Shown: positions 1,301 to 41,730 of the stretch, piece by piece
Layout of the letters: every line of letters starts with the position of its first letter
Numbering within the stretch: position 1 is the first letter of the stretch
Assembly (NCBI GenBank): GCA_937920515.1
Contig: CALEUG010000006.1
Location: 96,000 to 137,731, forward strand
Reading direction: 5' to 3'
Origin: an uncultured bacterium
GTDB taxonomy: Bacteria; Acidobacteriota; Aminicenantia; Aminicenantales; Saccharicenantaceae
DNA: 41,732 nt
The notes under the pieces: generated by a model
What the model was told of the DNA's origin: nothing
The model's input: the letters and a program-made list of their open reading frames with translations, nothing else
Databases searched by the model: none
Translations under genes and position numbers: made by a program

Positions 1301-2104
1301 TCAGTCTTCTTTCGGTCCTGACCGAGCCCAGGCCAGAAATTTTTCCCTGGCCCCCGGCCTGTTGTTCAAAAATTCGCTGACGATAATTGTGGCCTGGAAA
1401 TCCGGATGCAGCGGGTCAGCAATCACCGCTTCCAGCCCATGGCCTATCAGGTTGCTGAGGAAGGTCAGGTTGACCACCCTCCTTCTGGGCAGCCCGTAAG
1501 AGACGTTGCTCAGGCCGGCCACTGTTTTGAAGCCCGGGAATTCCCTCCTTACCAGCAGCAGGCTCTCCAGAAAAAGTCGGCCGGCCTCGGGTTTTATGGC
1601 CAGCGGCCTGACCAGCAGGTCCAGAAAGATGTCATCCTGACTGAGCGGAGTCCGGTTGAAAATCTTGTTTAATATTTTACCCGCCAGGCCGACTGTCTGC
1701 TCTGGAGTCTCCGGCAACCCGTTGTCATCGAGGCAGGAAACGATAACCCGGGGACGGTAGTCGCAGACGAGAGGAATTATTTCTTCCATCTCCCGTTGCT
1801 TACCTGACAGCGAATTTAACAGGGCCCGGCCGCGGTGCGCTCTCAGCCCGGCCTCCAGGGCGGCCGGACTGGTGCTGTCAATGGAAAGCGGCAGAGAAAC
1901 TTTGTTTTGTAGCACTGGAATAATCCAGGTAAGTATCTCGGGTTCGCGGTCCAGCAGGGTAGAGGCGTTGAGGTCCAGATAGGAACAACCGGCATTTTCC
2001 TGCTTAACTGCCAGCTCAACCAGATAGCTCTCGTTCTTCTGAAGGAAGGCTTCTTCTACCGGCCGGCGGCTGGAATTTAGCAATTCTCCTATGATGATCA
2101 GCAT
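1301..2104 (-). CDS. Methyltetrahydrofolate:corrinoid methyltransferase-like protein (AcsE/MeTr family)
   Basis: A 267-residue pterin-binding TIM-barrel protein, close to the 262 residues of Moorella MeTr (AcsE). Shared features in order are the start MLIIIGELLN, SYLDLNAST, the pterin-site block SLPLSIDSTS, LLNSLSG, and GLSNVSYGLP followed by NLTFL and EAVIADPL. The Asn in GLSNVS matches the one that supports methyl activation in MeTr. Known members move the methyl of 5-methyl-THF to or from a corrinoid protein, as in the Wood-Ljungdahl pathway or the folate module of MetH. It is the last gene of the aminotransferase-serA-desulfurase run, 35 bases after the desulfurase. No acetyl-CoA synthase or CFeSP genes are in this window. 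A corrinoid protein encoded at 35199-35873 is a possible partner. Start ATG is at 2104 with a weak ribosome site. Confidence 0.8.
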   Translation of the reverse strand: MLIIIGELLNSSRRPVEEAFLQKNESYLVELAVKQENAGCSYLDLNASTLLDREPEILTWIIPVLQNKVSLPLSIDSTSPAALEAGLRAHRGRALLNSLSGKQREMEEIIPLVCDYRPRVIVSCLDDNGLPETPEQTVGLAGKILNKIFNRTPLSQDDIFLDLLVRPLAIKPEAGRLFLESLLLVRREFPGFKTVAGLSNVSYGLPRRRVVNLTFLSNLIGHGLEAVIADPLHPDFQATIIVSEFLNNRPGAREKFLAWARSGPKED

Positions 2105-2139
2105 CTTCGGGTCCGGTTATAAATAAAAAATAAAATCAG

Positions 2140-3294
2140 TCAGACTTCAGGTTGAAAGGGGGAGATGGCTCGCAGCTGGGCGATTATCTCCGGCATCTCC
2201 TTGAGCACAGTCTCCACATCCTGTTCGCTGTTAAACCGGCCCAGCGACATCCTGATGGCTGACCTGGCAATTTCCGGCTTCAGGCCTATGGCCAGTAACA
2301 CATGCGAAGCTTCTTCCGATTCCTCACTGCAGGCCGAGCCGGTTGAAACATAAATACCTTTGGTAGCCAGGGCCAGCAAAATAGCCTCGGCTTCCAGCCC
2401 GGGATAGGCAAAATTGACGGTAGTCTTTATTCTTTTTTCAGGATGACCGTTGAAAATTATGCTGGGAATCCTCTCTTCCAGACCGGCTTTCAATTTTTCG
2501 GCCAGCTTTTCCAGCCTGTCCTTATCCTTCTTCCATCTTTCCTGAAGGATTCGGGCCGCCTCACCGAAGCCGACAATCCCGGCTGTATTCTCCGTCCCCG
2601 CCCTGAGACCGAATTCCTGGTGCCCGCCGTGGATGAATGGCAGAATGGGTGTTCCCTTTTTAATGTACAGAGCTCCCACGCCCTTGGGTCCATAAATTTT
2701 GTGCGACGATACGGTCAGGAGGTCCACTCCCAGCTTTATGACGTTGACCTCCATCTTGCCAAATGCCTGGACGGCATCGGTATGAACCGGGACTCCATAA
2801 CGCCGGGCGATCCTGATTATTTCTTCCAGCGGTTGTATGGTGCCGATTTCGTTGTTGGCCATCATTACCGAGACCAGGGCTGTCTCTTCCGAGATGACCG
2901 ATTCCAGGTAATTGAGGTCCACCAGCCCGAAACGGTCAACCGGGAGGTAATGGACGACGTAACCTCTCTTCTCCAGGTATCTCGCCGTTTCCAGGACGGC
3001 CGGATGCTCGATGGCAGAAGTTATGAACTGCTTTTTCTCCGGTCGAGCTTCGAGAACCCCGATGATGGCAAAATTGTCCGACTCGGTTCCAGAGCCGGTG
3101 AAAATTATCTCGCTGCGGTGAGCCCCGAGAGCTGTAGCTACCTGTTCCCGGGCCTCGGTCAGCAGTTCTTTAACCTGGCGGCCGAGGGGATAAAGAGAGG
3201 ACGGATTGCCGAAATGTTCCCGGATAAACCAGGTCATCTTTTCAGCGACCCGGGGGTCAAGCGGTGTGGTGGCGTTATTATCAAGATATACCAT
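2140..3294 (-). CDS. nifS: Cysteine desulfurase, NifS/IscS type
   Basis: A PLP enzyme of 384 residues that removes sulfur from L-cysteine as an enzyme persulfide for Fe-S cluster and thio-cofactor assembly, giving alanine. The family signature starts the protein (MVYLDNNATTPLD). The PLP lysine is in SSHKIYGPKG, the substrate motif is RAGTENTAG, and the catalytic cysteine is in STGSACSEE. The length is normal. It lies 75 bases after serA on the same strand and 35 bases before the corrinoid methyltransferase-like gene. I see no IscU scaffold next to it. Serine is the carbon precursor of cysteine, which makes the position after serA sensible. Whether its main role is Fe-S assembly or tRNA thiolation cannot be told from the sequence. 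Confidence 0.93.
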   Translation of the reverse strand: MVYLDNNATTPLDPRVAEKMTWFIREHFGNPSSLYPLGRQVKELLTEAREQVATALGAHRSEIIFTGSGTESDNFAIIGVLEARPEKKQFITSAIEHPAVLETARYLEKRGYVVHYLPVDRFGLVDLNYLESVISEETALVSVMMANNEIGTIQPLEEIIRIARRYGVPVHTDAVQAFGKMEVNVIKLGVDLLTVSSHKIYGPKGVGALYIKKGTPILPFIHGGHQEFGLRAGTENTAGIVGFGEAARILQERWKKDKDRLEKLAEKLKAGLEERIPSIIFNGHPEKRIKTTVNFAYPGLEAEAILLALATKGIYVSTGSACSEESEEASHVLLAIGLKPEIARSAIRMSLGRFNSEQDVETVLKEMPEIIAQLRAISPFQPEV

Positions 3295-3369
3295 TTCTAC
3301 TTCCCAGGGCCATTGTACACCTTTTCGCTGATTAAGGAAGAGAGGTCAAATCCAGCGGAACTAATGGTT

Positions 3370-4275
3370 TCAGGCCCGGGCGAATTTTTCCTTCAGAATC
3401 CTGACCACTTCCATTCCGGCTCTTTTCTGGCCTTCCTCGGCTGCCGCACCCAGGTGGGGTGTAGCCGTTACCCGGGGATGGTCAATCAGCGAAAAGTCTT
3501 CTGGCGGTTCTTTTTCGAATACATCCAGGGCCGCGGCCTTGACCTTGCCGGAGTTCAGGGCCTGGAGCAGTGCCTTTTCATCAACCACCCCGCCGCGAGC
3601 CACATTGACAATAACCACCCCGTCTTTCATCAGGGCAAATTCAGCCTCACCCAGAATGGGCTTCGGGGTCTTGGGAACATGAAGGGTAATGATATCGGCC
3701 TGCCTTATAAGCTCTTCCAGATTGACCTGTTTAACGGGCAGGTCGGTGGTTATCTGAATAACATCGTAAGCCAGGATATTCATTCCGAAGGCCAGGGCCC
3801 TTCTGGCCACTTCTTTTCCAATACGACCGAAGCCGATGATGCCCAGAGTTTTTCCGTAAAGCTCGGTACCGGTGAAGGCCTTCTTTTCCCACTTGTGTTG
3901 TTTCATGCTCAGATTGGCCGGGCCATGATAACGTATTGCCCCCAGCATAAGGCCCAGGGTATGTTCGGCCACAGAGATTGAGGTGGCCGCCGGGGTATTG
4001 GCCACCTCTATTCCTTTTTCCTTGGCTGCGGCCACATCTATATTATCAAGACCGATGCCGGCCCTGATGAGCAATTTCAAATTTTTGCCGGCTTCGATGA
4101 CCGGCCTGGTGATTTTGGTAGCGCTGCGGACCACGGCCACGTCAAATTCCGGAATTATTTGTACCAGCTCCGGCTCGGTCAGCCCGGTCCGGACGGTTAC
4201 CTCGAAACCGGGAACTTTCTGCAGCTCGGCCACAGCCTCTTTATCCAGACTGTCAGCTATCAATATTTTTGTCAT
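3370..4275 (-). CDS. serA: D-3-phosphoglycerate dehydrogenase, short form
   Basis: An NAD-dependent 2-hydroxyacid dehydrogenase that oxidises 3-phosphoglycerate to 3-phosphohydroxypyruvate, the first step of serine synthesis. It shows the Rossmann motif GIIGFGRIGKEVA, the catalytic Arg in NVARGGVVDE and the catalytic His in TPHLGAA. At 301 residues it is a short form without the C-terminal ACT regulatory domain, so classical serine feedback through ACT is absent. Two in-frame ATGs are possible. I chose 4275 because the GGAGG upstream is 7 bases from it but only about 1 base from the ATG at 4281. The chosen ATG overlaps the stop of the aminotransferase gene (ATGA), which suggests translational coupling. 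A related hydroxyacid dehydrogenase activity cannot be excluded. Confidence 0.88.
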   Translation of the reverse strand: MTKILIADSLDKEAVAELQKVPGFEVTVRTGLTEPELVQIIPEFDVAVVRSATKITRPVIEAGKNLKLLIRAGIGLDNIDVAAAKEKGIEVANTPAATSISVAEHTLGLMLGAIRYHGPANLSMKQHKWEKKAFTGTELYGKTLGIIGFGRIGKEVARRALAFGMNILAYDVIQITTDLPVKQVNLEELIRQADIITLHVPKTPKPILGEAEFALMKDGVVIVNVARGGVVDEKALLQALNSGKVKAAALDVFEKEPPEDFSLIDHPRVTATPHLGAAAEEGQKRAGMEVVRILKEKFARA

Positions 4276-5420
4276 TGCCATCCCTCCCTTAAAACTTTCT
4301 GGGCGGCAGCCACCGAGGCTCCCGCCTGGAACTTATCATAACCCAGGTCCAGGAGAGTCATTTCCAGGGCAGACAGGGCAGTGATTATATCGAAGCCGCC
4401 CATGTAACCCAGGTGGGCGATGCGGAAGAATTCGCCTTTGTGCGGATCCTGGGCGTTGGATATGTAAGCCATGTATTTATTCTGCATGGTCTTGACCAGC
4501 TTGTTGCCGTCGACTCCCGCTGGTGTCTTAACCGCGGTCAGGATGTTCCCCGGTCTTTTGGCCAGCAGTTCAAGTCCGATGGCCTTGACCGCGGCCCGGG
4601 TGGCCTCACCCAGAACCTGGTGATGCTTGAGCAGGGTATCCATTCCCATGTTCCTGATGATATCCAGTGCCTTTTTCTGCTGGATGACCAGCGATACGGC
4701 CGGGGTCCAGGGAGTGGTTTGCTTTTCCAGGTTTTTACGGTACTTCTTGATGTCAAAATAGAACTTGGGCAGCTTAGAAGTTTCCACCAGCTTCCAGGCT
4801 TTCGGGCTGAAGGCGAGGTAAGCCAGGCCGGGCGGAATCATGAAAGATTTCTGAGAACCCGTGACCAGAATATCCACCTTCCAGTCATCCATCGGGCAGG
4901 CTGTGGCTCCAACACCCGAGATGCCATCGACCACCAGGATGGCCTCGGTGGCGGCCACCACTTCGCCAAAGCCTTTGATATCAAAGATGGCTCCGGTTGA
5001 GGTCTCCGACAGGGTGGTGAAAACGGCTTTTACCCCGGGGTTCTTCCGTATCTCTTCAGCCAGCTGTTCCGGGCTGAAATCTTCACCCCAGGGCAGGACG
5101 ACCTCTCTGGTGTCCAGTCCAAAAGCCCGGCAGATGTTCCCCCATCTTTCTCCAAACTTGCCACCGTTAATGGTGATGACCCTGTCTCCGGGTGACAGGG
5201 TATTTATGACCGCAGTTTCCATGGCCCCGGTTCCGGAAGCGGCCAGGATGTAAACATCTTCCTTGGTGCCGAAAACGTATTTCAGACCTTCGGTCACTTC
5301 CATGAAGATCTTGGAAAATTCAGGAGTCCGGTGATGGATGATGGGCTCGGCGGCCGAGGACAGCACTGATTCCGGTACTGGAGTGGGCCCGGGCGATAAC
5401 AGATAATACTTTTTTATCAT
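4272..5420 (-). CDS. Class V aminotransferase (phosphoserine or serine-pyruvate/alanine-glyoxylate type)
   Basis: A 382-residue PLP-dependent aminotransferase of the alanine-glyoxylate/serine-pyruvate family. It begins with YYLLSPGPTPVPESV, has the phosphate-binding AASGTGAMETAV region, and places the PLP lysine in VTGSQKSFMIPPG. Coupling to serA by an ATGA overlap implies the second step of serine synthesis, converting phosphohydroxypyruvate and glutamate to phosphoserine. The sequence type is not classical SerC, and this family also makes glycine from glyoxylate. The start is clear: AAGGAGG lies just before the ATG at 5420. It probably heads the serA, desulfurase and methyltransferase run. 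The family is certain; the physiological substrate is inferred from context. Confidence 0.88.
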   Translation of the reverse strand: MIKKYYLLSPGPTPVPESVLSSAAEPIIHHRTPEFSKIFMEVTEGLKYVFGTKEDVYILAASGTGAMETAVINTLSPGDRVITINGGKFGERWGNICRAFGLDTREVVLPWGEDFSPEQLAEEIRKNPGVKAVFTTLSETSTGAIFDIKGFGEVVAATEAILVVDGISGVGATACPMDDWKVDILVTGSQKSFMIPPGLAYLAFSPKAWKLVETSKLPKFYFDIKKYRKNLEKQTTPWTPAVSLVIQQKKALDIIRNMGMDTLLKHHQVLGEATRAAVKAIGLELLAKRPGNILTAVKTPAGVDGNKLVKTMQNKYMAYISNAQDPHKGEFFRIAHLGYMGGFDIITALSALEMTLLDLGYDKFQAGASVAAAQKVLREGWQ

Positions 5421-31222: not shown

Positions 31223-32086
31223 ATGAGCCTTAAAACCCACCTCAATTCCGGTATTAACAGGTCTCTATCCAGGTTAAGACTCTCAGTCTACATCTGGCTG
31301 GTATTGCTGTTTCTGGCTTTGGTGGCCCTGGCCCCTATCAATTCTCTCCTGAGAAGCAACCTCGGCCATTTTTACCTTCCGGAAAAACCACTTATGCCCT
31401 TTGAATTTAACCTGGTCGAAGTCATTCTGGCCAATCAACAAATCCTGACCCCCTATGCCGGCTTTCTGCTGACCCTGATGCTGCTCGCCTGCCTGATTTT
31501 TATTTTCCTTAGCGCTGGCCTGTTCGGCCGGATGCTCAGCCCCGACCCGGTGGTAACCTTCAGGGAATTTCTGGCTGACGGAGCCCGTCACTTCTGGAAG
31601 TTCATTCTTTCGCTTCTGGCTTTTCTTCCATTTCTGGCTGTATTCTTAATCCTTTTCCAATTTCTGGCCGCCCCGCTTAACTGGTGGTCAGGTCGGGCCG
31701 TAACTGAATGGCCGGTTATCATCGCCTCCAACCTCAGGCTGTTAATCCTGATTCTGCTCTGGACTGCCCTCAAGCTGCTCCTGGACCTGGCCAGAATAAT
31801 CATGTTATCCGGGTCAAAAAAAGTAATCCCGGCTTACGTTTCAGCCCTTCTTTTCCTGAAACATAACTTTTTCGGGCTCTGGGGGCTGTACCTGCTGCTC
31901 GGCCTGATGGTTATTTCAATTTCAGCTTTCTGGTTATTTCTGCTTCGCCTTTTTCCGGCTGGTACCACACCTGGAGTTCTGGCCCTTATAATTGCGGGCC
32001 AGGTTTATATAATCTTCAGGGTTCTGGCCCGACAGGTCTTCATCGGGGTTGAATATTCCTATTACCTCAAACGGAAAGGCAGTTAA
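31223..32086 (+). CDS. Polytopic membrane protein, unknown function
   Basis: A 287-residue protein with about six hydrophobic segments: 23-42 (VYIWLVLLFLALVALAP), 76-100, 125-150 (ILSLLAFLPFLAVFLILF), 168-190, 214-235 (LWGLYLLLGLMVISISAFW) and 247-265. I recognise no family-specific motif; the layout resembles DUF-type integral membrane proteins of about 280 residues. A GGAGGAGA site precedes the ATG. It starts 16 bases after the M1 peptidase gene, and its stop is directly followed by the ATG of the beta-CASP gene, so the three are probably one transcript. A role in anchoring or regulating the peptidase is only a guess. Confidence 0.7.
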   Translation: MSLKTHLNSGINRSLSRLRLSVYIWLVLLFLALVALAPINSLLRSNLGHFYLPEKPLMPFEFNLVEVILANQQILTPYAGFLLTLMLLACLIFIFLSAGLFGRMLSPDPVVTFREFLADGARHFWKFILSLLAFLPFLAVFLILFQFLAAPLNWWSGRAVTEWPVIIASNLRLLILILLWTALKLLLDLARIIMLSGSKKVIPAYVSALLFLKHNFFGLWGLYLLLGLMVISISAFWLFLLRLFPAGTTPGVLALIIAGQVYIIFRVLARQVFIGVEYSYYLKRKGS

Positions 32087-33490
32087 ATGCTGAAGGTAAA
32101 ATTTCTGGGAGCCGCTTCCCAGGTCACCGGTTCCTGTTTTCTTCTTTCCACTAACGGCTTGAACTTCCTGGTGGACTGCGGCCTTTACCAGGAACGCGAT
32201 TTCCAGGCCCGCAACTGGGAGCCGTTTCCCTTCCCGCCGCAGAAGATTGATTATATTTTTCTGACCCATGCCCACCTTGACCACTGTGGGCTCATCCCGA
32301 AAGTGGTCCGGGAAGGTTTCCGGGGGCGAATTCTCTGCACCCCGCCTTCGGCCGAAATCCTGCCCATCGTTCTGCTCGACACGGCCAAGCTCCAGGAAGA
32401 AGATGCCCTGATCAAGAAGAAAAGGCATGAAAAAGAAGGACGCCGCGGACCGTACCCGGAAATTCCTCTTTACACCACGTCCGACGTGGAAAAAGCCCTG
32501 CCGCTGGTAGAAGCGGTGGATTATCACCTTAAAATCAACCTGGCCCCGGGGGTTCAGCTAACCTTCAGGGAGGCCGGCCACATCCTGGGTTCGGCCATCA
32601 TCGAGCTTGTGGTTGAAAACGGCCCCGTGGCCCGCCGGATACTCTTCAGCGGAGACCTCGGTCAATGGGATAAACCCCTGGTCCGCGACCCGGAAACCTT
32701 TACCCGGGCTGACTATATTTTCCTGGAATCCACCTACGGGGACAGGGAGCACGACCACCCGGAAAAAGTCTCCGACCGGCTGGCCGAAAACGTCAACCGG
32801 GTCCTGGCCCGGGGTGGTAACCTGGTCATCCCGACCTTCGCCATAGAAAGGGCCCAGGAGCTGATGTTTCACCTCAGCCACCTGGTCAGAGAGAAGAAAA
32901 TACCGCAGCTGCCGGTATTCCTGGACAGCCCGATGGCCGTTTCCGTGACCAATGTTTTTAGCCATTACCTGAAATACCTGGACGAGGAATCGCGAACCCT
33001 TTTTTCGTCCGGGAAAAATCCCTTCGACTTTCCCGGCCTGAAGCTCGTCCAGGACTTCGAAGAGTCCAGGCTGATAGATAAAACTCGCGGTCCGGCCGTC
33101 ATCATGGCCGGTTCGGGCATGTGCACCGGCGGCCGTATCAAACACCACCTGGTAACCAACATCAGCCGGCCGGAATCAACCATTCTGTTTGTGGGTTACC
33201 AGGCCAGGGGCACCCTGGGAAGGCAGATACTGGAAGGCCAGTCTCCGGTTCGGATTTATGGCCAGATGTACCAGGTCCGGGCCAGCATCGACCAGATCCA
33301 GGGTTTTTCGGCCCACGCCGACCGGGCCCAGCTCTGGAGATGGCTCAGGTCTCTGGAAAGACCGCCCCGGACCATTTTCCTGGTACACGGCGAAAAAGAA
33401 GTCATCCAGCATTTTGCCGGAGAAATCAGCAGTCAGACCGGCTGGCCAGTTAAAGTTCCTGAATACCTGAGCGAATACCTGCTCGATTGA
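32087..33490 (+). CDS. Metallo-beta-lactamase / beta-CASP RNA-processing protein
   Basis: A 467-residue beta-CASP nuclease-type protein of the CPSF73/Ysh1-like bacterial group. The start LKVKFLGAASQVTGSC leads to the zinc motif THAHLDHCG (His61, His63, Asp65, His66). Then come EAGHILGSAII, FSGDLGQWDKPLV, the beta-CASP region with PTFAIERAQE and FLDSPMAVSV, and the C-terminal motifs GSGMCTGGRI, GFSAHADRAQL and VHGEKE, which carry the remaining ligands. Such proteins act as RNA endo- or 5'-3' exonucleases; no KH domain is present. Start and stop are unambiguous: the ATG abuts the previous stop. A candidate terminator follows at 33500-33524. Substrate identity is unknown. Confidence 0.9.
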   Translation: MLKVKFLGAASQVTGSCFLLSTNGLNFLVDCGLYQERDFQARNWEPFPFPPQKIDYIFLTHAHLDHCGLIPKVVREGFRGRILCTPPSAEILPIVLLDTAKLQEEDALIKKKRHEKEGRRGPYPEIPLYTTSDVEKALPLVEAVDYHLKINLAPGVQLTFREAGHILGSAIIELVVENGPVARRILFSGDLGQWDKPLVRDPETFTRADYIFLESTYGDREHDHPEKVSDRLAENVNRVLARGGNLVIPTFAIERAQELMFHLSHLVREKKIPQLPVFLDSPMAVSVTNVFSHYLKYLDEESRTLFSSGKNPFDFPGLKLVQDFEESRLIDKTRGPAVIMAGSGMCTGGRIKHHLVTNISRPESTILFVGYQARGTLGRQILEGQSPVRIYGQMYQVRASIDQIQGFSAHADRAQLWRWLRSLERPPRTIFLVHGEKEVIQHFAGEISSQTGWPVKVPEYLSEYLLD

Positions 33491-33733: not shown

Positions 33734-35206
33734 TCAGCCGCCCGCTTCCGGCAGCTGTTCCAGCCCGCAGCTACCGGCATAGGCCTTCATGATTTTTTTA
33801 AGCTCACCGGCCTTTTCCAGGCAGAGCTCCGGCCTCTGGTACAGGGATAATCGCCTGGTAATCTCCTTGCCGGCTCTCTCGAAGATATCCAGCCGGCCGA
33901 GGGCCGTCCAGGTATCGTAGACGTCGCGGTCCAGGACCGAAGAAAAATAATGCTCCTGCCTGTACCATTTCCTGGTATGGGGAAGAACCAGGAAATTGAA
34001 ATCCGGGCCGAGATCGGCAAACAGGTGCAGCGCCAGGGGTTTTTCTCTCAGGGTTATGCCCCGGACCAGCCTCAGGGCCTGGCCGCAGATGTCATTGTCG
34101 ATGACCAGCTTTTCCAGGCTCTGGGTGCTCTCGAAGTTGAGCATGCCGGCACCGGAAATGACATTAATACCGGCCAGGGCGGCCAGGGTGGCACCCATGG
34201 CCGTTTCCAGCCCGGCCTGGGCATCGACCAGTTTGGAGTCGCTCAATCCCATGTAGGCGTGAGTGGGGAAACCCAGATGCTTGGCTATCTGGGCAAAGGC
34301 ACAGTCAATCATCATGGTTTCAGGGGCGCCCATGGGAGTCGTGCCTTTTCTCATGTCAAAACCGGCTGGGGACCCGCCGAAAATTACCGGGGCCCCGGGC
34401 CTGGCCAGCTGGCAGATGACCAGCCCGCAGAAACTTTCGGCCAGCTGCTGGACCAGGGTTCCGGCCAGAGTGACGGGCGAGGTGGCACCGGTCAGGCCCA
34501 TCGGTATGAGTTCCGAAGGCACACCCAGCCGGCTGCAGTCGATGAGGCTCTGGGCGGTCAGCCGGCTCCATTTAAGGGGAGGGGAGGGGCAGGCATCGAA
34601 GATGGCCAGGGGCTTTTCGGCCAGGGTCTTTTCATCTCCCCTGACTGCTACCAGCAAGTCCAGCATCGGTTTCAGGCTTTCCACCCGGAAAATTCCGGTG
34701 ACGAAAGGCTTGCGCGAAAAGAGCAGTCCCAGGTAAAGCCGGTAAATATCCGCCATCTCTTCCGGAACGTCGGCACTGACCAGGGCAGTGCTCTGAAAAT
34801 CCAGGTTTTCCAGGGTTTCCACCAGCTGGTAAAGGGTAACCAGGTCGGTGGTTACCGCCTCCCTTTCTTTCAGGGTGGCCGGGTCCAGAATTTTGATGGC
34901 AGCCGAACCGGGGTCAAAGTGTATTTCATCCCGCCCGACCAGGTATTCCCGGCTGCCGTCCAGGTCAAAGAGCCTGATTTCAGAGGGGCAAGTCTTCAGG
35001 CATTCCTCCACCAGGCTTCTTTCAATAAAGACACGACTTTTTCTCCGGTCTATTTTCTGGCCGGCTTCTTCCAGGAGCTTCAAGGCTTCCTCGTTTTCAA
35101 CAAATATGCCCGCTTTTTGCAGCAGTTCAATGGCCTCGTCAATAATCTGTTCCACGGCCTGCTGGCTCAGGAACCTGACCCCGGGTCTGAGGACTGCTTC
35201 AGTCAT
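33734..35206 (-). CDS. mttB: MttB-family methylamine:corrinoid methyltransferase (non-pyrrolysine)
   Basis: A 490-residue TIM-barrel methyltransferase of the trimethylamine methyltransferase (MttB) superfamily. Family blocks are RFLSQQAVEQIIDEAIELL near the start, FDPGSAAIKILD, the IFDACPSPPLKWS segment, GATSPVTLAGTLVQQLAE, FGGSPAGFDMRKGT and AMGATLAALAGINVISGAG. The frame is uninterrupted, so no pyrrolysine (amber) codon is used. Non-Pyl relatives demethylate quaternary amines such as glycine betaine (MtgB), proline betaine, carnitine or gamma-butyrobetaine, passing the methyl to a corrinoid protein. GGAGG is 5 bases before the ATG, and it overlaps the corrinoid protein gene by 8 bases. It is the last gene of the operon; the methyl donor cannot be told from the sequence. 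Confidence 0.93.
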   Translation of the reverse strand: MTEAVLRPGVRFLSQQAVEQIIDEAIELLQKAGIFVENEEALKLLEEAGQKIDRRKSRVFIERSLVEECLKTCPSEIRLFDLDGSREYLVGRDEIHFDPGSAAIKILDPATLKEREAVTTDLVTLYQLVETLENLDFQSTALVSADVPEEMADIYRLYLGLLFSRKPFVTGIFRVESLKPMLDLLVAVRGDEKTLAEKPLAIFDACPSPPLKWSRLTAQSLIDCSRLGVPSELIPMGLTGATSPVTLAGTLVQQLAESFCGLVICQLARPGAPVIFGGSPAGFDMRKGTTPMGAPETMMIDCAFAQIAKHLGFPTHAYMGLSDSKLVDAQAGLETAMGATLAALAGINVISGAGMLNFESTQSLEKLVIDNDICGQALRLVRGITLREKPLALHLFADLGPDFNFLVLPHTRKWYRQEHYFSSVLDRDVYDTWTALGRLDIFERAGKEITRRLSLYQRPELCLEKAGELKKIMKAYAGSCGLEQLPEAGG

Positions 35207-35873
35207 GGTTGCCTCCCCGGCGGGCCATCAGTTTCCGGGCGACGGAGACCGCCTGAACGGCGCTTTCTCCATAACCGTCGGCCCCGATTTCCCTGGCGAA
35301 TTTTTCGGTAACTGGAGCTCCGCCGACCATCACAGTGAACTTATCTTTAAGACCCCGGCTGACCAGAAGTTCGACGACTTTTTTCTGGTTGAGCATGGTG
35401 GTGGTCAGCAGAGCTGACAGGGCAATGATATCTGCCTCCTCGCTGGCGGCCACTTCCACAAATTTTTCCACCTTGACGTCAGCTCCCAGGTCGATGACCT
35501 CAAAACCTGAGGCCCTCAGCATGGAAGCCACCAGGTTCTTTCCGATGTCGTGGATATCGCCTTCTACCGTGCCGATGACCACCCGGCCGGCCGACTTCAA
35601 GCTCTGCCCGGAGGATTTCAGGGCCTCCTGAAGCACAGCCATAGCCGCTTTCATGGCCTCGGCTCCGGCAATAAGCTCCGGCAGAAAATAATCTCCGGCT
35701 TCCCATAGCCGACCCACTTCCTCTATAGCCGGGACGCAGGCTTGCTCGATGACCTGAAGCGGCGGCAGCTCTTCGGTTAGGGCTTTTTCGGCCAGAGGGC
35801 CGGCTTCATCCACCAGGCCCTGGATAATTGCCTGGCTCAGGTCTTGAAGATGTTTGTTCAGCTCTGGTTTCAT
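35199..35873 (-). CDS. Corrinoid protein (MtbC/MttC type, B12-binding)
   Basis: A 224-residue methyl carrier. An N-terminal four-helix cap (about 5-90, with EEVGRLWEAGDYFLPEL) is followed by the Rossmann-like B12 domain (about 95-215). The cobalt-ligand motif is GDIHDIG, with His108 as the lower ligand. ALSALLTTTML and VGGAPV complete the corrinoid pocket. It is the same layout as the B12 module of MetH and as MtaC, MtbC and MttC. In the operon it would take a methyl from MttB and pass it to homocysteine through the methyltransferase encoded just upstream, or exchange it with THF through the MeTr-like protein at 1301-2104. AAGGAGG before the ATG gives a firm start; the gap to the upstream gene is 24 bases. 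Confidence 0.95.
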   Translation of the reverse strand: MKPELNKHLQDLSQAIIQGLVDEAGPLAEKALTEELPPLQVIEQACVPAIEEVGRLWEAGDYFLPELIAGAEAMKAAMAVLQEALKSSGQSLKSAGRVVIGTVEGDIHDIGKNLVASMLRASGFEVIDLGADVKVEKFVEVAASEEADIIALSALLTTTMLNQKKVVELLVSRGLKDKFTVMVGGAPVTEKFAREIGADGYGESAVQAVSVARKLMARRGGNHD

Positions 35874-35897
35874 ACCTGCCTCCTTTGCCGGTTCCGT

Positions 35898-36794
35898 TCA
35901 TTTGATTCTATCAAAAAAGCCAACGATTTTTTCAGAAATTTTTTTTATGTGTTCGGGTGAGGTTCCGCAGCAGCCTCCGATAACCCTGGCCCCGGCTTCT
36001 ATCAACCCCGGAACGTGCCGGGCATATTCTTCCGGACCCAGCTCGTAGTAAGTGAGATTATCCGGGCCGACCCGGGGCTGGCCGGCGTTGGCCTGGGCCA
36101 CCAGCGGCCGGTTGCTAAGAGTGCGCAGGATTTTTATCAATCCGGCCATCTCTGCCGGGCCCAGCGTGCAGTTGGCCCCGAAGGCCTCCACTGCATTTTC
36201 TTCCATGGCCCGGATAAAGGCTTCGGGAGAAACTCCCATCATGGTGTAATAACCGCGCCTGGTAAGATTGAAGGTCATGGTCACAAAGACAGGCAGAGTA
36301 CAGGCTTCTCTCGCCGCCCTTAAAGCCAGAAGGGCCTCTTTCAGGTCATACTGCGTTTCTATCAACAGGAAGTCCACCCCGCCATCAGCCAGACCTTCTA
36401 TCTGAGGACGGAAAGCCTTTAGCATCCTGTCTTCGGTCAGGTCGCCCACCGGTCTTAAGAATTTGCCAGTTGGCCCGATGCTCCCGCCGACATAGCCATC
36501 TTCCGGGCAAACGCTTCGAGCCAGCTGAGCAGCCTTCAGGTTAAGTTCGTAGGTTCTGCTCTCCAGCCCGTACCCGGCCAGTTTCAGTGCGTTGCCACCG
36601 AAGGAGTTGGTCAGAATGGCCCGCGAGCCGGCTTCAAAGTAAGAGAGGTGAATACCGACCACGGCTTCCGGCCTTTCTTCGTTCCAGGCCTCTGGACAGT
36701 GTCCGGGAGGAAGCCCGGCCCGGAAAAGCTCGGTACCCATGGCCCCGTCCAGGAGAAAGACCTGTTTTTCCGTCAACTGCTTGATATCAAGCAT
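35898..36794 (-). CDS. Homocysteine S-methyltransferase (MetH homocysteine-module type)
   Basis: A 298-residue barrel equivalent to the N-terminal homocysteine module of MetH and to BHMT. It transfers a methyl to homocysteine, giving methionine. Zinc ligands are all present: Cys209 in GANCTLGP and Cys275-Cys276 in VIGGCCGTSPEHI. LLDGAMGTEL, LTNSFGGNALKL and GGSIGPTGKFLRPVGDL are like the MetH module. No B12, folate or reactivation domain is fused, so it depends on other proteins. I chose the ATG at 36794 because GGAGG is 7 bases upstream; longer frames reach 36857 inside the previous gene. The start overlaps the end of the RACo gene by 8 bases. A role with S-methylmethionine (MmuM) is less likely here because corrinoid genes flank it. 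Confidence 0.88.
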   Translation of the reverse strand: MLDIKQLTEKQVFLLDGAMGTELFRAGLPPGHCPEAWNEERPEAVVGIHLSYFEAGSRAILTNSFGGNALKLAGYGLESRTYELNLKAAQLARSVCPEDGYVGGSIGPTGKFLRPVGDLTEDRMLKAFRPQIEGLADGGVDFLLIETQYDLKEALLALRAAREACTLPVFVTMTFNLTRRGYYTMMGVSPEAFIRAMEENAVEAFGANCTLGPAEMAGLIKILRTLSNRPLVAQANAGQPRVGPDNLTYYELGPEEYARHVPGLIEAGARVIGGCCGTSPEHIKKISEKIVGFFDRIK

Positions 36795-38592
36795 CGTTTT
36801 TCCTCCAGTAGTGGCGTCCGAGGTGCAGGGCCTTGAGAAATTCAGCCTGAAATCCATCCACCTCTGCCAGTGAAATGTGTTGCACCCGGGCCGGCAGCTT
36901 CAAGGCTTCCCTCCTGGCCTTCTGGCTCAGCAGCATCAGCCCGGCCCCGGCCAGGGAAGCGTTGCCGGCAAAAATAATTTTCCGGAGGGGCAGGGGAGGG
37001 AGAAGGCCGGCCGTGATACACTGGGCCAGGTCAACCGAGTTGCCGAAGACACCGGCCAGGTAAATCCCGTCGAGCTCTGTCCATTTCAGGCCAGACGAGC
37101 GCAGCAGGAGCCGCATTCCGCTTTTTATGGCCGCCAGGGCCAGCTGCAGCTTTCTGATATCAGGCTGGGTCAGAGCCAACCGAGGTGCCACCTGAATTTC
37201 CGGGCGGCCGGCAGTTATCCTGCCCGAAGGCAGCAACCAGCCGGCCTTCAGGGATTCAGCCAGGACCCCCAGCAGGCCCGAGCCGCAGAGTCCAGTCGGC
37301 TTCTGCCGGCCTGTGGTCCGGTAGACAAATTTGCTTTCCGACCAGCTGACGTATTCAATGGCCCCGGGGACAGCCGGCAGCCCGCAGGAAATTCCGCTGC
37401 CTTCAAAGGCCGGGCCGGCAGCGGTGGAAGCCACCAGGATTGTCCTGCCTTTCTTGAGCGCGATTTCTCCGTTGGTGCCAAGGTCAACGTAAAGATAGTT
37501 ACCGGGTTTATCGGCCAGCGCGGTATAAATAAGTCCGGCCGTTATATCCCCGCCGACAAAGCCTCCAAGGTTGGGGCTGATGAAGACCATGGCCAGGGGA
37601 TTAAGCCTGAGGCCGATTTCCGATGCCGGGACCGGGTCATGAAGTAAAAAGGCCGGCTTAAAAGGGGCACTCCCCAGTGAGTCAACCGGTACCTTAAGGA
37701 AAAGATGGTTCATGACCGCGTTACCGGCCAGGCAGACCGCATATATCATCTTTGTTCTGGCCCTGGCTTCGAAGGACAGAGCTTCAGTTAATCTGGCGAT
37801 TGAATTCAGGGCAGCGCGCTGGAGTTTCTGGAGGTGGACAGGTTTTCCGGCGGCAAAACCAACCCGCGAAATCAGGTCGGCTCCAAAGGCAGCCTGCAGG
37901 TTGGCCGAACTGGCCGAGGCCAGGGTTTTCCCCTCGACCAGGTCCAGGAGCCGGGCCGAGACGGTGGTTGTTCCCAGGTCGAGGGCCAGCCCTAAGATTC
38001 TATCGTCGCCGCGACCGGGTTCCAGGTCCAGTAGCAGTCTGTCATCATAGATTACAGCCGTAAACTCCCGCGAAAAGACTGTTCGGGTTTTAAGTTTACG
38101 ACTCGCAGCCGGACTTATTGCCAGTTCCTTCAGGCCAAGGCCAGACTTTATCGTTCGCAACAGACTTTCAGCTCCGGGTTGACTTTTCACCGAGAGCTGC
38201 AGAACATATTTTTTAACCAGCGGGTTGAAATCCCGCAGAGCATAGAGTCTTTTCGGACTAATTCCCCCGGGCAGTTTCTTTATTTCCGGCAGCAGGAGAA
38301 GGTCGTCCGGAATCCGAACGGTTAAGGGCTGTCTGAGTCGGAGCTGGCAGGCCAAGCGAAAGCCGGGCCGAAGTCGCCGCTCGAGTCTCAACCCCTTTTC
38401 AGCTTCACTTTCTTCAGGCCAGCATTCTGATTTCACTTCCACAAAACACCGGCCGCAGATTCCCCGGCCCTGGCAGTACAGCTTGATAGGCAGACCGGCC
38501 TCAGACAGCACCCGGGAAAGCCTCTGCCCCCGGCTGGCCTCAGACACCACGATTCTTTTACCGGTTATCAGCCGTACTTTTATTCTGCCCAT
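36787..38592 (-). CDS. RACo-type reductive activator of corrinoid proteins
   Basis: A 601-residue ATP-dependent activator that reduces inactive Co(II) corrinoid to Co(I), as RACo (AcsV) does for the acetogen corrinoid protein and RamA-like proteins do in methanogens. The N-terminal [2Fe-2S] ferredoxin domain has Cys40, Cys46, Cys49 and Cys82. A linker and middle domain (about 95-190) lead to the ASKHA ATPase-like domain (about 200-580) with LGLALDLGTTTVSARLLD, YVDLGTNGEIAL, AAGPAFEGSGI and LAGVFGNSVD. This domain layout is the RACo/DUF4445 type. It is first in the operon and overlaps the homocysteine methyltransferase gene. Its presence means the corrinoid protein is kept active without the SAM-dependent reactivation domain of MetH. 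Confidence 0.92.
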   Translation of the reverse strand: MGRIKVRLITGKRIVVSEASRGQRLSRVLSEAGLPIKLYCQGRGICGRCFVEVKSECWPEESEAEKGLRLERRLRPGFRLACQLRLRQPLTVRIPDDLLLLPEIKKLPGGISPKRLYALRDFNPLVKKYVLQLSVKSQPGAESLLRTIKSGLGLKELAISPAASRKLKTRTVFSREFTAVIYDDRLLLDLEPGRGDDRILGLALDLGTTTVSARLLDLVEGKTLASASSANLQAAFGADLISRVGFAAGKPVHLQKLQRAALNSIARLTEALSFEARARTKMIYAVCLAGNAVMNHLFLKVPVDSLGSAPFKPAFLLHDPVPASEIGLRLNPLAMVFISPNLGGFVGGDITAGLIYTALADKPGNYLYVDLGTNGEIALKKGRTILVASTAAGPAFEGSGISCGLPAVPGAIEYVSWSESKFVYRTTGRQKPTGLCGSGLLGVLAESLKAGWLLPSGRITAGRPEIQVAPRLALTQPDIRKLQLALAAIKSGMRLLLRSSGLKWTELDGIYLAGVFGNSVDLAQCITAGLLPPLPLRKIIFAGNASLAGAGLMLLSQKARREALKLPARVQHISLAEVDGFQAEFLKALHLGRHYWRKNDA

Positions 38593-38778: not shown

Positions 38779-38859
38779 GGATTAAGAACAGACAGTAAGA
38801 TTTGAGAAGCACTTTATAAATTGAATTCAGACTTTAATGACGATTTTAAGGAGAGCGTC

Positions 38860-40383
38860 ATGAAAAAATTTTATCCCGAGCTCAAGACCATCAACCGGCG
38901 GAAGTTCCTGAGCCTGGGTCTTCAGGGCAGCCTGGCCCTGGCCGCCAGCCCGGCTCTGGTCAGAGCGCTTCTGGCCGGGGAAGGACAGAAGCTACAGGTG
39001 CCCGACGAACTTCTACAAAAAGCCCTGGCAGTTGCCCTGGAACGGGGTGGTGATTTTGCCGATGTTTACGTGGAAAACAGGGTGACCAGGAGCCTCGTCC
39101 TGGAAGAGGGCAAGTTCAAGAGCGCGGTTTTTGGCCTGGTCCGGGGCGCCGGGGTCAGGGTGATCGACGGCGATAAAACCGGCTATGCCTACACCGACGA
39201 ACTGACTGAAGAAAAAATCATCAGGGCGGCCGAGGTCGCTTCCTTTATCGCCACTTCCGGCCAGAAAGCACAGCCGGTGGCCCTCAGAGAGCAAAAGAGG
39301 CCATCTTATATCAGTGTCAAAATTCCCCTGCAGGAGGTGGCTGATACCAGAAGGATGGATATAATGAAAAGGGCTCACGAGGCAGCCCTGAGCTACGACC
39401 CTCGCATCAAGATGGCCAGCATAGATTACTACGACGAAATCAGGGACCGAATAATAGCCACTTCCGAAGGAGTGCTGCTCAGAAGAAGCCTGCCGCTGAT
39501 ATTCTTCATCGTCCAGACCCTGGCCGCGGGCAACAACACTTCCCACCTGGGCCGGGAAAGACTGAGCCGTCATGCCGGCCTGGAAATGTTTGACGAGCTG
39601 CCGCCGGAAAAAGCAGCCCGGGAAGCGGCCCGGGAATCGGTGGCCATGCTGGAAGCCCGCGAGGCTCCGGCCGGAAAGATGGATGTGGTCATCCAGAACG
39701 GGTGGGGCGGGGTCCTGGTTCATGAAGCGGTCGGGCACCCGCTCGAAGCCGATAACATAGCCCGGGAGACCGGAGCCTTCGTCGGCAAGCTCGGGCAGAA
39801 AGTGGCCGCTGATATTTTTACCATGGTCGACGACGGCAGCCTGCCCAACTTCCGCGGCACAACCGATTTCGACGACGAGGGCACCCAGATGAAAAAGAAT
39901 GTGCTGATAGAAAACGGGGTGCTGGTTAAGTACATGACGGACATCCTGTCGGCCAGGCAGCTTAAAATGGAGAGGACCGGGAACGGTCGGCGGGAGAGCT
40001 TCCGTTACTATCCCATACCCCGGATGACCAATACCTACATCGAGAAAGGCAAGGATAAGCCCGAAGACATAGTGGCTTCAACCAGAAACGGCCTTTACGT
40101 TCAGAGTCTGAGCGGCGGCAGCGTCAACCCGACCACCGGCATCTTCAACTTTACCTGCCGGGAAGCTTACCTGATAGAAGACGGCAGGAAAACCATGCCG
40201 GTCAGGGGAGCTACTCTGATCGGCAGCTGCCTTGATATCATCACCAGAATAGACGCCGTGGGCGACGACCTGGATTTTGGCCCCGGGATCTGCGGCAAGG
40301 GACAATCAGCCGAAGTTACCGCCGGGCAGCCGACCGTCAGGATCAGAGGCATCACCGTCGGCGGAACCAGGCAGAGAAGTTAA
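38860..40383 (+). CDS. tldD: TldD-family metalloprotease with a twin-arginine signal
   Basis: A 507-residue TldD-type protease. The N-terminus reads NRRKFLSLGLQGSLALAASP, a Tat signal, so this TldD may be exported folded, unlike E. coli TldD, which is cytoplasmic. The zinc site is HEAVGH (His288, His293), with the third ligand probably Cys478 in GICGKG. The domain starts with FADVYVENRVTRSLVLEEGK, which is standard. TldD/TldE cleave unfolded peptides, for example the leader of microcin B17 or CcdA. I chose the ATG at 38860 because AAGGAG is 6 bases before it; the TTG at 38821 would bury the Tat motif. The partner gene follows after 12 bases. The Tat call rests on a clear RRKFL motif and hydrophobic run. 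Confidence 0.91.
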   Translation: MKKFYPELKTINRRKFLSLGLQGSLALAASPALVRALLAGEGQKLQVPDELLQKALAVALERGGDFADVYVENRVTRSLVLEEGKFKSAVFGLVRGAGVRVIDGDKTGYAYTDELTEEKIIRAAEVASFIATSGQKAQPVALREQKRPSYISVKIPLQEVADTRRMDIMKRAHEAALSYDPRIKMASIDYYDEIRDRIIATSEGVLLRRSLPLIFFIVQTLAAGNNTSHLGRERLSRHAGLEMFDELPPEKAAREAARESVAMLEAREAPAGKMDVVIQNGWGGVLVHEAVGHPLEADNIARETGAFVGKLGQKVAADIFTMVDDGSLPNFRGTTDFDDEGTQMKKNVLIENGVLVKYMTDILSARQLKMERTGNGRRESFRYYPIPRMTNTYIEKGKDKPEDIVASTRNGLYVQSLSGGSVNPTTGIFNFTCREAYLIEDGRKTMPVRGATLIGSCLDIITRIDAVGDDLDFGPGICGKGQSAEVTAGQPTVRIRGITVGGTRQRS

Positions 40384-40395
40384 GCGGAGGGAAAA

Positions 40396-41730
40396 ATGGA
40401 TTACATAGCAATAGCCGAACAGGTCATAAAAACCTGCAAGCGGAAAGGAGCCGACCTGGCCGAAGCCTACCTGGCCAGCAAACGGGAACTGAGCCTCAAG
40501 GTCAGAAACGGAAAAATCGAGAGCATTCAGGAAGCCAGCAGCTACGGCCTGGGGCTCCGGGTCATAAGCGGCAATAAACTGGGCTTTGCCTACGTTAACG
40601 ATTTCCGGCCGGAGAGTCTGGAAGAAACGGTCGACCGGGCGCTGGAGTTCGCCCGGTTCCTGACTGCCGATGAAAATAACGTCCTGCCCGACGACCCGGG
40701 TGTCACCGAGGTCAAGGGGCTGTATGACCCGGGGTTGAGCCAGGTGGCCCTCGACAGGAAAATTGCCCTGGCCCGGGAAGTGGAAAGCCTGGCCCTGAAG
40801 GTTCCGGGAATTACCAGGAGTGCCGGGGCCAGCTACGGAGAGAGCGAGGGTCAAATCGTCCTGGCCAATTCCCTCGGTCTTGTCAAGAGCTACAGGAGCA
40901 GTGGCTGCGGCTTCGGGCTGGGAGTGATCGCCGAAAAAGGCGACCAGAAATCCAGCGGTTACGAGTCCTGTCAGCGCCGCTTCTTTTCCGACCTCAAGCC
41001 GGCCTCCGAGGTGGCCGTTAGGGCCGCGGACAAGGCCCTGCAGATGCTCGACCCCCGACCGGTAAAAACCCAGAGGGCGGCGGTTATTCTCGACCCCGAC
41101 GTGGCCTACGCCATCCTGGGTGGAATCATTCAGGCCATAAACGGCGAACGGGTACTCCAGGGGGCCAGCTTCCTGGCAAAAAGGCTCGGCCAGAAAATCG
41201 CTTCCGACCTCATCACCATAATTGACGACGGAACCCTGGAAAAAGGCCTGGCCAGCGCGCCTTTCGACGGGGAAGGTGTGCCGACCCTAAGGCGCCCGGT
41301 GGTGGAAAACGGCATCCTGAAAGGTTTTCTTTATAATTGCTATGCCGCCAGAAGGGCCGGCGTCAAGAGCACCGGCAACGCCAGCCGGGGCGGGTTTGAC
41401 AGCCTGCCGGGAATCGGACCGCACAATTTCTACATAGCGGCCGGCAAGCATAAACCGGAAGAAATTATTGCCGCCACCGACAGGGGAGTGCTGGTCAAGG
41501 AAGTAACCGGCTACGGAATAAACCCGGTCAACGGTAACTTCAGCGGCGGGGCAGCCGGGCTGTGGATAGAAAACGGGAAAATCGCCTTCCCGGTCAAAGG
41601 CATTACTATCGCCGGCACGGCCGAGGAAATACTTAACGGAATAGACATGCTGGGCAGCGACCTGGACCTCAACCGCAGCCGGACCGCCCCCACTCTCAGA
41701 ATAAAATCCCTGCAGATCGGCGGCGAGTAA
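40396..41730 (+). CDS. tldE: TldE/PmbA-family protein, partner of TldD
   Basis: A 444-residue TldE (PmbA) protein, the non-catalytic partner that forms a heterodimer with TldD and shapes the proteolytic chamber. It begins with ADLAEAYLASKRELSLKVRNGKIES, and its middle reads AAVILDPDVAYAILGG without any HExxxH, as expected for TldE. DGTLEKGLASAPFDGEG and GNASRGGFDS are family blocks. It has no Tat or other signal peptide, although its TldD partner does. GGAGGG stands just before the ATG. The gene ends 2 bases before the window edge. Confidence 0.92.
   Translation: MDYIAIAEQVIKTCKRKGADLAEAYLASKRELSLKVRNGKIESIQEASSYGLGLRVISGNKLGFAYVNDFRPESLEETVDRALEFARFLTADENNVLPDDPGVTEVKGLYDPGLSQVALDRKIALAREVESLALKVPGITRSAGASYGESEGQIVLANSLGLVKSYRSSGCGFGLGVIAEKGDQKSSGYESCQRRFFSDLKPASEVAVRAADKALQMLDPRPVKTQRAAVILDPDVAYAILGGIIQAINGERVLQGASFLAKRLGQKIASDLITIIDDGTLEKGLASAPFDGEGVPTLRRPVVENGILKGFLYNCYAARRAGVKSTGNASRGGFDSLPGIGPHNFYIAAGKHKPEEIIAATDRGVLVKEVTGYGINPVNGNFSGGAAGLWIENGKIAFPVKGITIAGTAEEILNGIDMLGSDLDLNRSRTAPTLRIKSLQIGGE

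Follow-up and report, generated by a model that had tools for sequence, protein, structure and literature searches.

We conclude that a compact four-gene operon in an uncultured bacterium of Candidatus Aminicenantes, assigned through its named relatives to the genus Ca. Saccharicenans, probably encodes a variant methionine synthase that is split into separate proteins, reactivated by RACo, and supplied with methyl groups by an amine. The specific arrangement toward which we somewhat lean is a cobalamin-dependent synthase built around a corrinoid protein (CorP), fed from a methylated amine by an MttB family methyltransferase and reactivated by RACo. Gene content and order, protein families, the predicted fold, co-occurrence patterns, and an empty site in relatives were observed directly, starting from a 41,732-nucleotide stretch of the genome (here, the window).

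Operon structure and encoded proteins

The four genes are open reading frames on the minus strand of the window. They encode RACo (36787..38592; 601 aa), an ATP-dependent reductive activator of corrinoid proteins with 2Fe-2S and ASKHA domains; HMT (35898..36794; 298 aa), a homocysteine S-methyltransferase of the MetH N-terminal type; CorP (35199..35873; 224 aa), a corrinoid-binding protein that combines a cap domain, a Rossmann domain, and a DxHxxG motif; and MttB (33734..35206; 490 aa), a non-pyrrolysine member of the MttB superfamily from a distinct clade (FDACPSPPLKW, FES). RACo and HMT overlap by 8 bases, as do CorP and MttB, and a 24-base gap separates HMT from CorP; these coordinates bear out the original observation of one operon with 8-base overlaps at its first and last junctions. 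The starts of HMT, CorP, and MttB are each preceded by GGAGG or GAGG. Conserved plus-strand genes flank the operon: tldD-pmbA on the RACo side (38821..41730; Pfam and gene maps) and, on the MttB side, a membrane-protein-like gene and a beta-CASP hydrolase gene (31223..33490; gene maps), of which the hydrolase gene has a Pfam match and its neighbor has none. The gene maps show no transporter beside the operon, and no riboswitch reached the gathering score in the 19 sources scanned with Rfam (11 plus 8).

Family motifs and domains are present in all four predicted proteins. RACo contains CQGRGICGRC at residue 40 and matches Fer2 (1.1e-7), Raco_middle (8.9e-48), and RACo_C_ter (3.5e-63), so that the 2Fe-2S, RACo middle, and ASKHA domains of a RACo/RamA activator are all there; its relative among solved structures is 3zyy (3.6e-92). 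CorP has DIHDIG at residue 106, matches B12-binding (PF02310; 3.9e-31) and B12-binding_2 (PF02607; 4.2e-22), and is related to 1y80 (2.5e-50) and MttC (7xcn_M; 2e-48), with matches to the MtgC and pyl_corrinoid models under the cut-off. The sole Pfam family matched by HMT is S-methyl_trans (PF02574; 8.3e-73; profile scores refer to 35898-36797, which extends the gene by one codon). Its cysteine motifs, GANC at 206 and GGCCG at 273, are presumably involved in binding zinc. A search against solved structures places HMT closer to MetH (1q7m, 1e-51 over residues 4-292; 5dml, 1.1e-20) than to BHMT (1lt7, 2e-16 over residues 11-224), and it was not classed as BHMT.

Relative to the metH model, the homocysteine and corrinoid modules (positions 2-315 and 648-861) are matched in neighboring operon genes, and the folate module lies outside the operon. 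This module corresponds to MeTr (1301..2104, minus strand), a standalone methyl-THF:corrinoid methyltransferase located among cysteine desulfurase, serA-like, and aminotransferase genes. It matches metH model positions 341-585 (1.6e-24) and the solved relatives 4o0q (4.8e-38) and 2yci (8.4e-35). MeTr accompanies the operon in all 10 operon-bearing genomes, and its orthologue adjoins HMT in a serA-type operon of two other genomes (G027 and G033). MeTr is a probable second donor module. There is no PF02965-type SAM activation module among the operon genes. Overall, the B, C, D, and E modules and a RamA/RACo activator, five genes in all, are present within the window.

MttB clade

MttB belongs to the MTTB family (PF06253; 1.8e-87 over 9-471), which places it in the superfamily. 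It carries GLSDSK at residue 320 and has no in-frame stop. We rejected assignment as a pyrrolysine trimethylamine methyltransferase, as there is no in-frame amber codon and the TIGR02369 score is 378 bits (cut-off, 525); L321 occupies the Pyl334 position and S351 the Tyr364 position. Rfam PYLIS_3 matches all fell within coding sequence and were read as mttB coding homology. The AlphaFold2 model (mean pLDDT, 92.4) superimposes on MtgB of Desulfitobacterium hafniense (9yce/2qne; TM 0.91) and on MttB (7xcl/7xcm/7xcn; TM 0.90-0.92). MttB shares its fold and a non-pyrrolysine loop with this MtgB, but the two are only 30% identical, and MtgB lies outside the window clade, which is separated with an SH-aLRT of 100 in a quick tree with long branches. 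Where the window MttB has D204, W213, E359, and S360, D. hafniense MtgB has L, Y, F, and M; among the pocket residues, the clade-specific acidic D204 and E359 give no more than a hint about the substrate.

Among the loci of this clade that were listed (the best 80 of 420), thirteen are neither titled Aminicenantes or Acidobacteria nor shown to belong to the order. HMT occurs near MttB in eight of these, seven of which also have an activation-protein homologue; in the other five no partner adjoins MttB, the upstream flank being truncated in two.

Alternation with MetH and MTHFR in Ca. Saccharicenans

Among 19 Saccharicenans genomes, 9 have the operon without methylene-THF reductase (MTHFR) (one of them, G010, truncated to RACo and part of HMT where its contig ends), 9 have MTHFR without the operon, and only the genome of the window, G000, has both. 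RACo is found in 10 of the 19, MttB in 9, and MTHFR in 10; RACo and MTHFR occur together only in G000 (Fisher p 1.2e-4, kinship ignored). Of the 10 MTHFR genomes, 9 encode either full-length MetH or a 780-aa MetH-like protein, and the remaining one, G001, has the beginning of a MetH gene where a contig ends; none of the nine operon-only genomes encodes either protein. All eight operon-lacking genomes inspected show an empty site at the same syntenic place. This near mutual exclusion with MetH and MTHFR, at a clean syntenic site, supports the methionine synthase role first proposed for the gene set.

The operon-only genomes gave no match to MTHFR (PF02219; 9 of 9) in a search that covers homologous forms of the enzyme. 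It is unlikely that incompleteness explains this: the product of the missing fractions for eight of them (G010 set aside) is 5.6e-9 if independent, and G042 and G043, which are single contigs of 4.4 Mb, likewise gave no MTHFR match. A hidden synthase of the MetE or core MetE type was rejected because PF01717 was matched in 0 of 40 relatives. Given that MTHFR, MetH, and MetE were not found in the nine operon-only genomes, the net supply of methyl groups there most likely comes through MttB, and the operon set is the likeliest sole methionine synthase. In addition to the operon system, G000 encodes, on contig C4, the MetH-like 780-aa protein, a 193-aa partner, and MTHFR, a set that we take to resemble the Thermotoga-type MetH with a separate activation protein (TM0268/TM0269). 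This set is distinct from the operon and is the competing system of that genome; the single activation-protein (A1) match in G000 adjoins its MetH-like gene.

A search of the nine operon-only genomes for the SAM-type activation protein gave no homologue, which leaves RACo as the only candidate reactivator identified there. The expectation that RACo stands in for SAM-dependent repair is therefore supported for these genomes but does not extend across the order, where many MttB genes have a PF02965-type protein alongside. MttB also has an activation-protein homologue as a neighbor in what looks like a catabolic cluster (G028, contig C32), and thus we do not accept the presence of such a homologue as proof of methionine synthesis, for which it is not specific.

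Distribution across the order

The four genes recur in the same order within the genus and beyond it (e.g., G019, G022, and G026), so the arrangement is not a chance one. Relatives thus conserve the gene order, the outcome that the original proposal called for; elsewhere in the order HMT is often separate from RACo-CorP-MttB (G027, G028, G029, G030, G032, G033, and G039). MttB matches occur in 75 of 94 genomes and in all 35 genera of the order. Outside the genus, 45 of 75 genomes by hand count have MttB together with MTHFR; thus, the exclusion is a genus-level pattern that reflects few independent events.

Discussion

The catalytic steps and the substrate proposed here are all predictions from gene content and distribution. 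MttB would transfer a methyl group from a methylated amine, probably a quaternary one, to Co(I)-CorP, and methylated CorP would pass it to homocysteine on HMT, yielding methionine. RACo, with ATP, would return oxidized Co(II) corrinoid to Co(I). MeTr is probably also able to charge or discharge CorP with methyl-THF. Weighing against this reading are the companion MeTr in every operon-bearing genome, the coexistence of MttB and MTHFR outside the genus, the second system in G000, the lack of a neighboring transporter, the separation of HMT in seven genomes, and the five loci where no partner adjoins MttB. We advance more tentatively, and at less than an even chance, the idea that the synthase is folate free, with the MttB clade replacing the folate module of MetH and CorP handing amine methyl groups directly to homocysteine, and is the sole methionine synthase in operon-only Saccharicenans. 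If so, the methyl group of methionine could not come from serine in these organisms, and the synthase would extend over Aminicenantes and, going by contig titles, Zixibacteria, Krumholzibacteriota, Gemmatimonadota, and an Asgard archaeon.

Alternatively, the operon may be part of a folate-fed, MtgCDE-like split synthase, in which methyl groups pass from methyl-THF through MeTr and CorP to HMT, with MttB as a secondary inlet that operates only if an amine is available, as in Ruegeria. The constant presence of MeTr in operon-bearing genomes, its position next to HMT in two serA-type operons, the coexistence of MttB and MTHFR outside the genus, and the dual use described for Ruegeria MtgBCDE in the accessible text of PMC12478193 all fit this route. 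However, methyl-THF would be without a known source in the nine genomes lacking a PF02219 match, and MeTr was not seen near MttB in seven of the eight HMT-bearing loci listed outside Aminicenantes, so we consider the folate-fed route unlikely, if credible. Less probable still is catabolic amine demethylation, with methyl groups flowing from MttB through CorP and MeTr to THF and HMT diverting little for methionine. MttB-CorP pairs are known in catabolism (PMC12478193, accessible text), and in the G028 cluster three MttB genes are accompanied by genes for CorP and for MeTr-like and MTHFR-like proteins, but methyl-THF has no known further use without MTHFR, MttB is present in every genus of the order, and operon loss within Saccharicenans goes with the presence of MetH and MTHFR.

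It is very improbable that HMT acts alone from betaine or S-methylmethionine, its neighbors being functionally unrelated. The model NF005718 (PRK07534), named betaine--homocysteine S-methyltransferase, does match HMT, at 234 bits against a cut-off of 338. We nonetheless rejected a BHMT-like enzyme working alone, given the stronger and longer match to MetH and the recurrence of corrinoid protein or RACo genes next to HMT in several settings, including G042, where HMT follows CdhD-type CoFeSP genes and RACo.

The amine-fed, RACo-reactivated synthase that we favor is not without precedent, given MtgBCDE, its nearest known counterpart, and split MetH with a RamA-like activator. As described in the accessible text of PMC12478193, Ruegeria pomeroyi MtgBCDE moves amine methyl groups to THF via MtgD, mtgD is required for methionine, and a metF paralogue is induced; all four mtg genes are colocalized in Sinorhizobium meliloti. 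Shared with this system are a PF06253 donor, pterin and homocysteine proteins, a RamA-like activator, and a single corrinoid hub for amine demethylation and methionine synthesis. Here, in contrast, the operon includes HMT, about 32 kb separates it from MeTr, and the operon-only relatives gave no MTHFR match; the MttB clade also differs from MtgB, a comparison made with 2qne rather than Ruegeria MtgB. The Phaeobacter inhibens split synthase, according to the accessible text of PMC5764234, likewise has separate homocysteine, corrinoid, and pterin proteins and a DUF4445 RamA-like activator in place of PF02965, but it is described there without MttB, in an aerobe, and with a DUF1638 protein also required. 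Core methionine synthases MesA-MesD similarly make methionine without methyl-THF, and methyl groups for MesA-C are predicted to come from corrinoid proteins; these enzymes are of the MetE type (PF01717), whereas the operon acceptor is of the MetH type (PF02574) (PMC7857596, accessible text). Neither the operon in Saccharicenans nor an MTHFR-free, MttB-fed synthase was described in the papers found, most subscription papers lying outside the scope of the search.

In nearly all textbook routes the methyl group of methionine originates from methyl-THF. If the proposal is correct, the operon represents an unusual route to an essential amino acid, in which an amine enzyme joins or replaces the folate donor, and some anaerobes would have to salvage methylated amines in order to make methionine and, from it, SAM. 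Folate-linked methyl synthesis could then be lost and regained as a unit, with MetH and MTHFR alternating with the operon. The proposal also gives a testable biosynthetic role to an MttB clade whose members usually carry annotations of trimethylamine or quaternary-amine catabolism, and such an annotation is unsafe ground for inferring methylotrophy.

Results

Operon layout and protein families

The four genes are open frames on the minus strand of the window and encode the corrinoid activator RACo (38592-36787), a MetH-type homocysteine methyltransferase (HMT; 36794-35898), a corrinoid protein (CorP; 35873-35199), and the non-pyrrolysine methyltransferase MttB (35206-33734). RACo and HMT overlap by 8 bases, HMT and CorP are separated by 24 bases, and CorP and MttB again overlap by 8, so that the original prediction of a four-gene operon with 8-base overlaps at its first and last junctions was correct to the base. 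GGAGG or GAGG precedes the start of three of the four genes. Pfam and NCBIfam give consistent family assignments for all four; as the proteins do not reach the NCBIfam equivalog or exception cutoffs for known MttB, MtgC, and MetH, we claim no named subfamily for them. Matches to Rfam PYLIS_3 lie within MttB genes in the window (34147-34246) and in three further stretches (L047, 7963-8062; L055, 6907-7006; L079, 5190-5289). Pyrrolysine insertion at the window match was rejected because the gene has no in-frame stop, and the match is therefore read as mttB coding homology.

The predicted structure of the window MttB (mean pLDDT, 92.4) is about equally close to MtgB and MttB (TM, 0.90 to 0.92). 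It forms one clade with its neighborhood relatives (SH-aLRT, 100) in a 41-row quick tree with several long branches; MtgB, MttB, and the accessory MttB copies found in the same order fall outside this clade. One row of the tree (L019_acc) was mislabeled accessory and is identical to a core row. The window MttB carries D204, W213, E359, and S360 where MtgB has L, Y, F, and M (MttB residue roles were taken from PMC9842639), and L321 at the pyrrolysine position of MttB. The separate clade and the residue differences make a substrate other than glycine betaine possible. The nearest solved protein to HMT is MetH (1q7m; 1e-51, residues 4 to 292), followed by MmuM-like 5dml (1.1e-20) and BHMT (2e-16, residues 11 to 224); given this proximity to MetH, a corrinoid methyl donor is more likely than betaine itself.

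Distribution in the genus and order

Among the 19 Saccharicenans genomes sampled, RACo occurs in 10 (G000, G002, G004, G006, G008, G009, G010, G011, G014, and G015), MttB in nine (the same set minus G010, in which RACo and a piece of HMT lie at a contig end), and methylene-THF reductase (MTHFR; PF02219) in 10 (G000, G001, G003, G005, G007, G012, G013, G016, G017, and G018). RACo and MTHFR coincide only in G000, the genome that carries the window at C6:96000-137731 (2.56 Mb, 47 contigs, 91.7% complete), and none of the 19 lacks both (Fisher P = 1.2e-4, kinship ignored). Full-length MetH is found in MTHFR genomes G005, G007, G016, G017, and G018, and a MetH-like protein of 780 amino acids in G000, G003, G012, and G013; in G001 (74% complete), MetH is represented only by its start, where a contig ends. 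The MetH-related content of the nine genomes with the operon and without MTHFR (operon only) consists of separate HMT, CorP, and methyl-THF:corrinoid methyltransferase (MeTr) genes and weaker corrinoid-domain pieces. All 10 operon genomes carry MeTr, as do G003, G012, and G013; none was seen in G001 or the five full-MetH genomes. No match to the MetE-type domain PF01717 was detected in the 40 relatives searched, a set without G042 and G043; 10 of 14 control genomes gave one.

Contig C4 of G000 encodes, in a row, a 193-amino-acid activation-protein homologue, the MetH-like protein, MTHFR, and a Cys/Met PLP enzyme. In the genome of the window, this MetH-like/MTHFR row (L056, 3825-9180) is a second route to methionine, and we present G000, with both sets, as an intermediate. 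The 193-amino-acid protein has no Pfam match at 0.001; its relatives match PF02965, the SAM-type activation module of MetH (e.g., the G013 copy at 5.7e-7 and the G003 copy at 0.013).

Across the order, 75 of 94 genomes (74 over the cutoff) and 35 of 35 genera have MttB matches, and 62 of the 94 genomes have MTHFR matches. By hand count, the 75 genomes outside the genus comprise 45 with both, 21 with MttB only, seven with MTHFR only, and two with neither; the sharp exclusion is thus a feature of this genus alone. Of the MTHFR matches outside it, many are fusions with an HMT-like domain (open frames of ~600 to 720 amino acids) or weak partial matches. Two single-contig genomes of 4.4 Mb each (G042 and G043) encode MttB and HMT, with no match to PF02219. 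MetH-like proteins of 800 to 820 amino acids (model positions 1-3 to 849-881) occur in G038, G050, G051, and G070, which have MttB genes elsewhere in the genome.

Operon site and history

The operon lies between tldD-pmbA and a beta-CASP gene on a single contig in seven of 10 genomes (G000, G002, G008, G009, with the tldD end observed in an adjoining stretch, G011, G014, and G015); its flanks are on two contigs in G006, and one was seen in G010 and none in G004. Of eight operon-lacking genomes inspected (G001, G003, G005, G007, G012, G013, G016, and G017), tldD directly adjoins the beta-CASP gene in five, and small open reading frames intervene in G007 and G017 (one each) and G003 (four). G018, whose best tldD match has 42% identity, is outside this comparison. 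The beta-CASP metallo-hydrolase of the window (32087-33490) reaches 416 bits against the type VII Cas14 model (cutoff, 800) and 331 bits against the aCPSF1 model (cutoff, 580), and is likely an RNase-type rather than a CRISPR protein.

RACo-HMT-CorP-MttB also adjoins tldD-pmbA in G019, from another genus of the family. In a five-marker tree of 23 genomes, the operon genomes fall into a single clade (bootstrap, 98) and the remainder into three lineages, which would be explained by three losses or by one loss plus one regain. In the MttB tree, the window MttB groups with that of G027 rather than with that of G019 (SH-aLRT, 87), and the operon MttB may therefore have been transferred between lineages. 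There were therefore few independent events.

Discussion

The original prediction set RACo, rather than SAM, as the means of corrinoid repair. This holds for Saccharicenans, where a PF02965-type activation protein was found in 0 of the nine operon-only genomes, but not more widely: of the 33 strongest matches across the order (E of 1.8e-61 or better), 27 are proteins of ~200 amino acids at most 700 bases from MttB, and four of the other six belong to the MetH-like operons of G000, G003, G012, and G013. A relative of this protein also lies beside MttB in L085 (G028 C32:15000-32613), a cluster with three MttB copies, two CorP genes, and MeTr-like and MTHFR-like genes. As that cluster is catabolic looking, the activation protein by MttB is not alone a mark of methionine synthesis.

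Gene partners vary outside the genus. RACo-CorP-MttB is a stable core there (G027, G028, G029, G030, G032, G033, G034, and G039); HMT is joined to it in G019, G020, G022, G025, G026, and G031, and elsewhere the core stands without an adjoining HMT (~5 kb away in G034). HMT instead lies between desulfurase and MeTr, adjoining the latter, in the aminotransferase-serA-cysteine desulfurase operon of G027 and G033; the orthologous window operon (1301-5420; cysteine desulfurase, serA-like, and aminotransferase genes) holds MeTr without HMT. In G042 (L208, 235-6589, contig C1), a CooC-like ATPase, two CdhD-type CoFeSP genes, and RACo (two open reading frames) immediately precede HMT, which suggests that HMT can use other corrinoid proteins, here as a MetH-type acceptor fed from a Wood-Ljungdahl corrinoid protein.

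A pattern scan of named genomes gave 475 stretches, 420 encoding relatives, of which the best 80 were used. In the 46 loci extending 3.8 kb or more upstream and 0.9 kb or more downstream, we counted, near MttB, CorP in 38, RACo in 27, the activation protein in 17, HMT in 16, MeTr in one, and no partner in six. Thirteen loci are neither titled Aminicenantes or Acidobacteria nor recognized as members of the order. Eight have HMT near MttB (L190, L196, L197, L201, L203, L204, L206, and L207), seven of them with the activation protein and L203 with MeTr, and five (L197, L201, L204, L206, and L207) hold the full CorP-HMT-activation-MttB set; no partner was found in L186, L193, L198, L200, or L202 (upstream side incomplete in L193 and L200). 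Some bin titles may be incorrect, as L202 (Spirochaetales) falls on approximately the same branch as L199 (Aminicenantes). An uncharacterized group of Asgard MttB-like proteins has been read as quaternary-amine methyltransferases (PMC11291895), in a paper whose main text does not contain the word "methionine."

Precedents, as described in the respective reports, are Ruegeria MtgBCDE, with dual use (PMC12478193), the Phaeobacter split synthase, with a RamA-like activator (PMC5764234), and Bmt, which acts alone on DMSP and betaine (PMC12366255). In the proposed route, methyl groups would pass from MttB to CorP and via HMT to methionine, with RACo reactivating the corrinoid and MeTr serving as a second port. 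The retention of MeTr in operon genomes is the main point that an MttB-fed reading leaves unexplained. Since HMT accompanies RACo-CorP-MttB or MeTr depending on the genome, HMT, MeTr, CorP, and RACo look like regrouped modules of one split enzyme. As MTHFR is missing from the operon-only genomes, MttB is likely the net source of methyl groups in these organisms.
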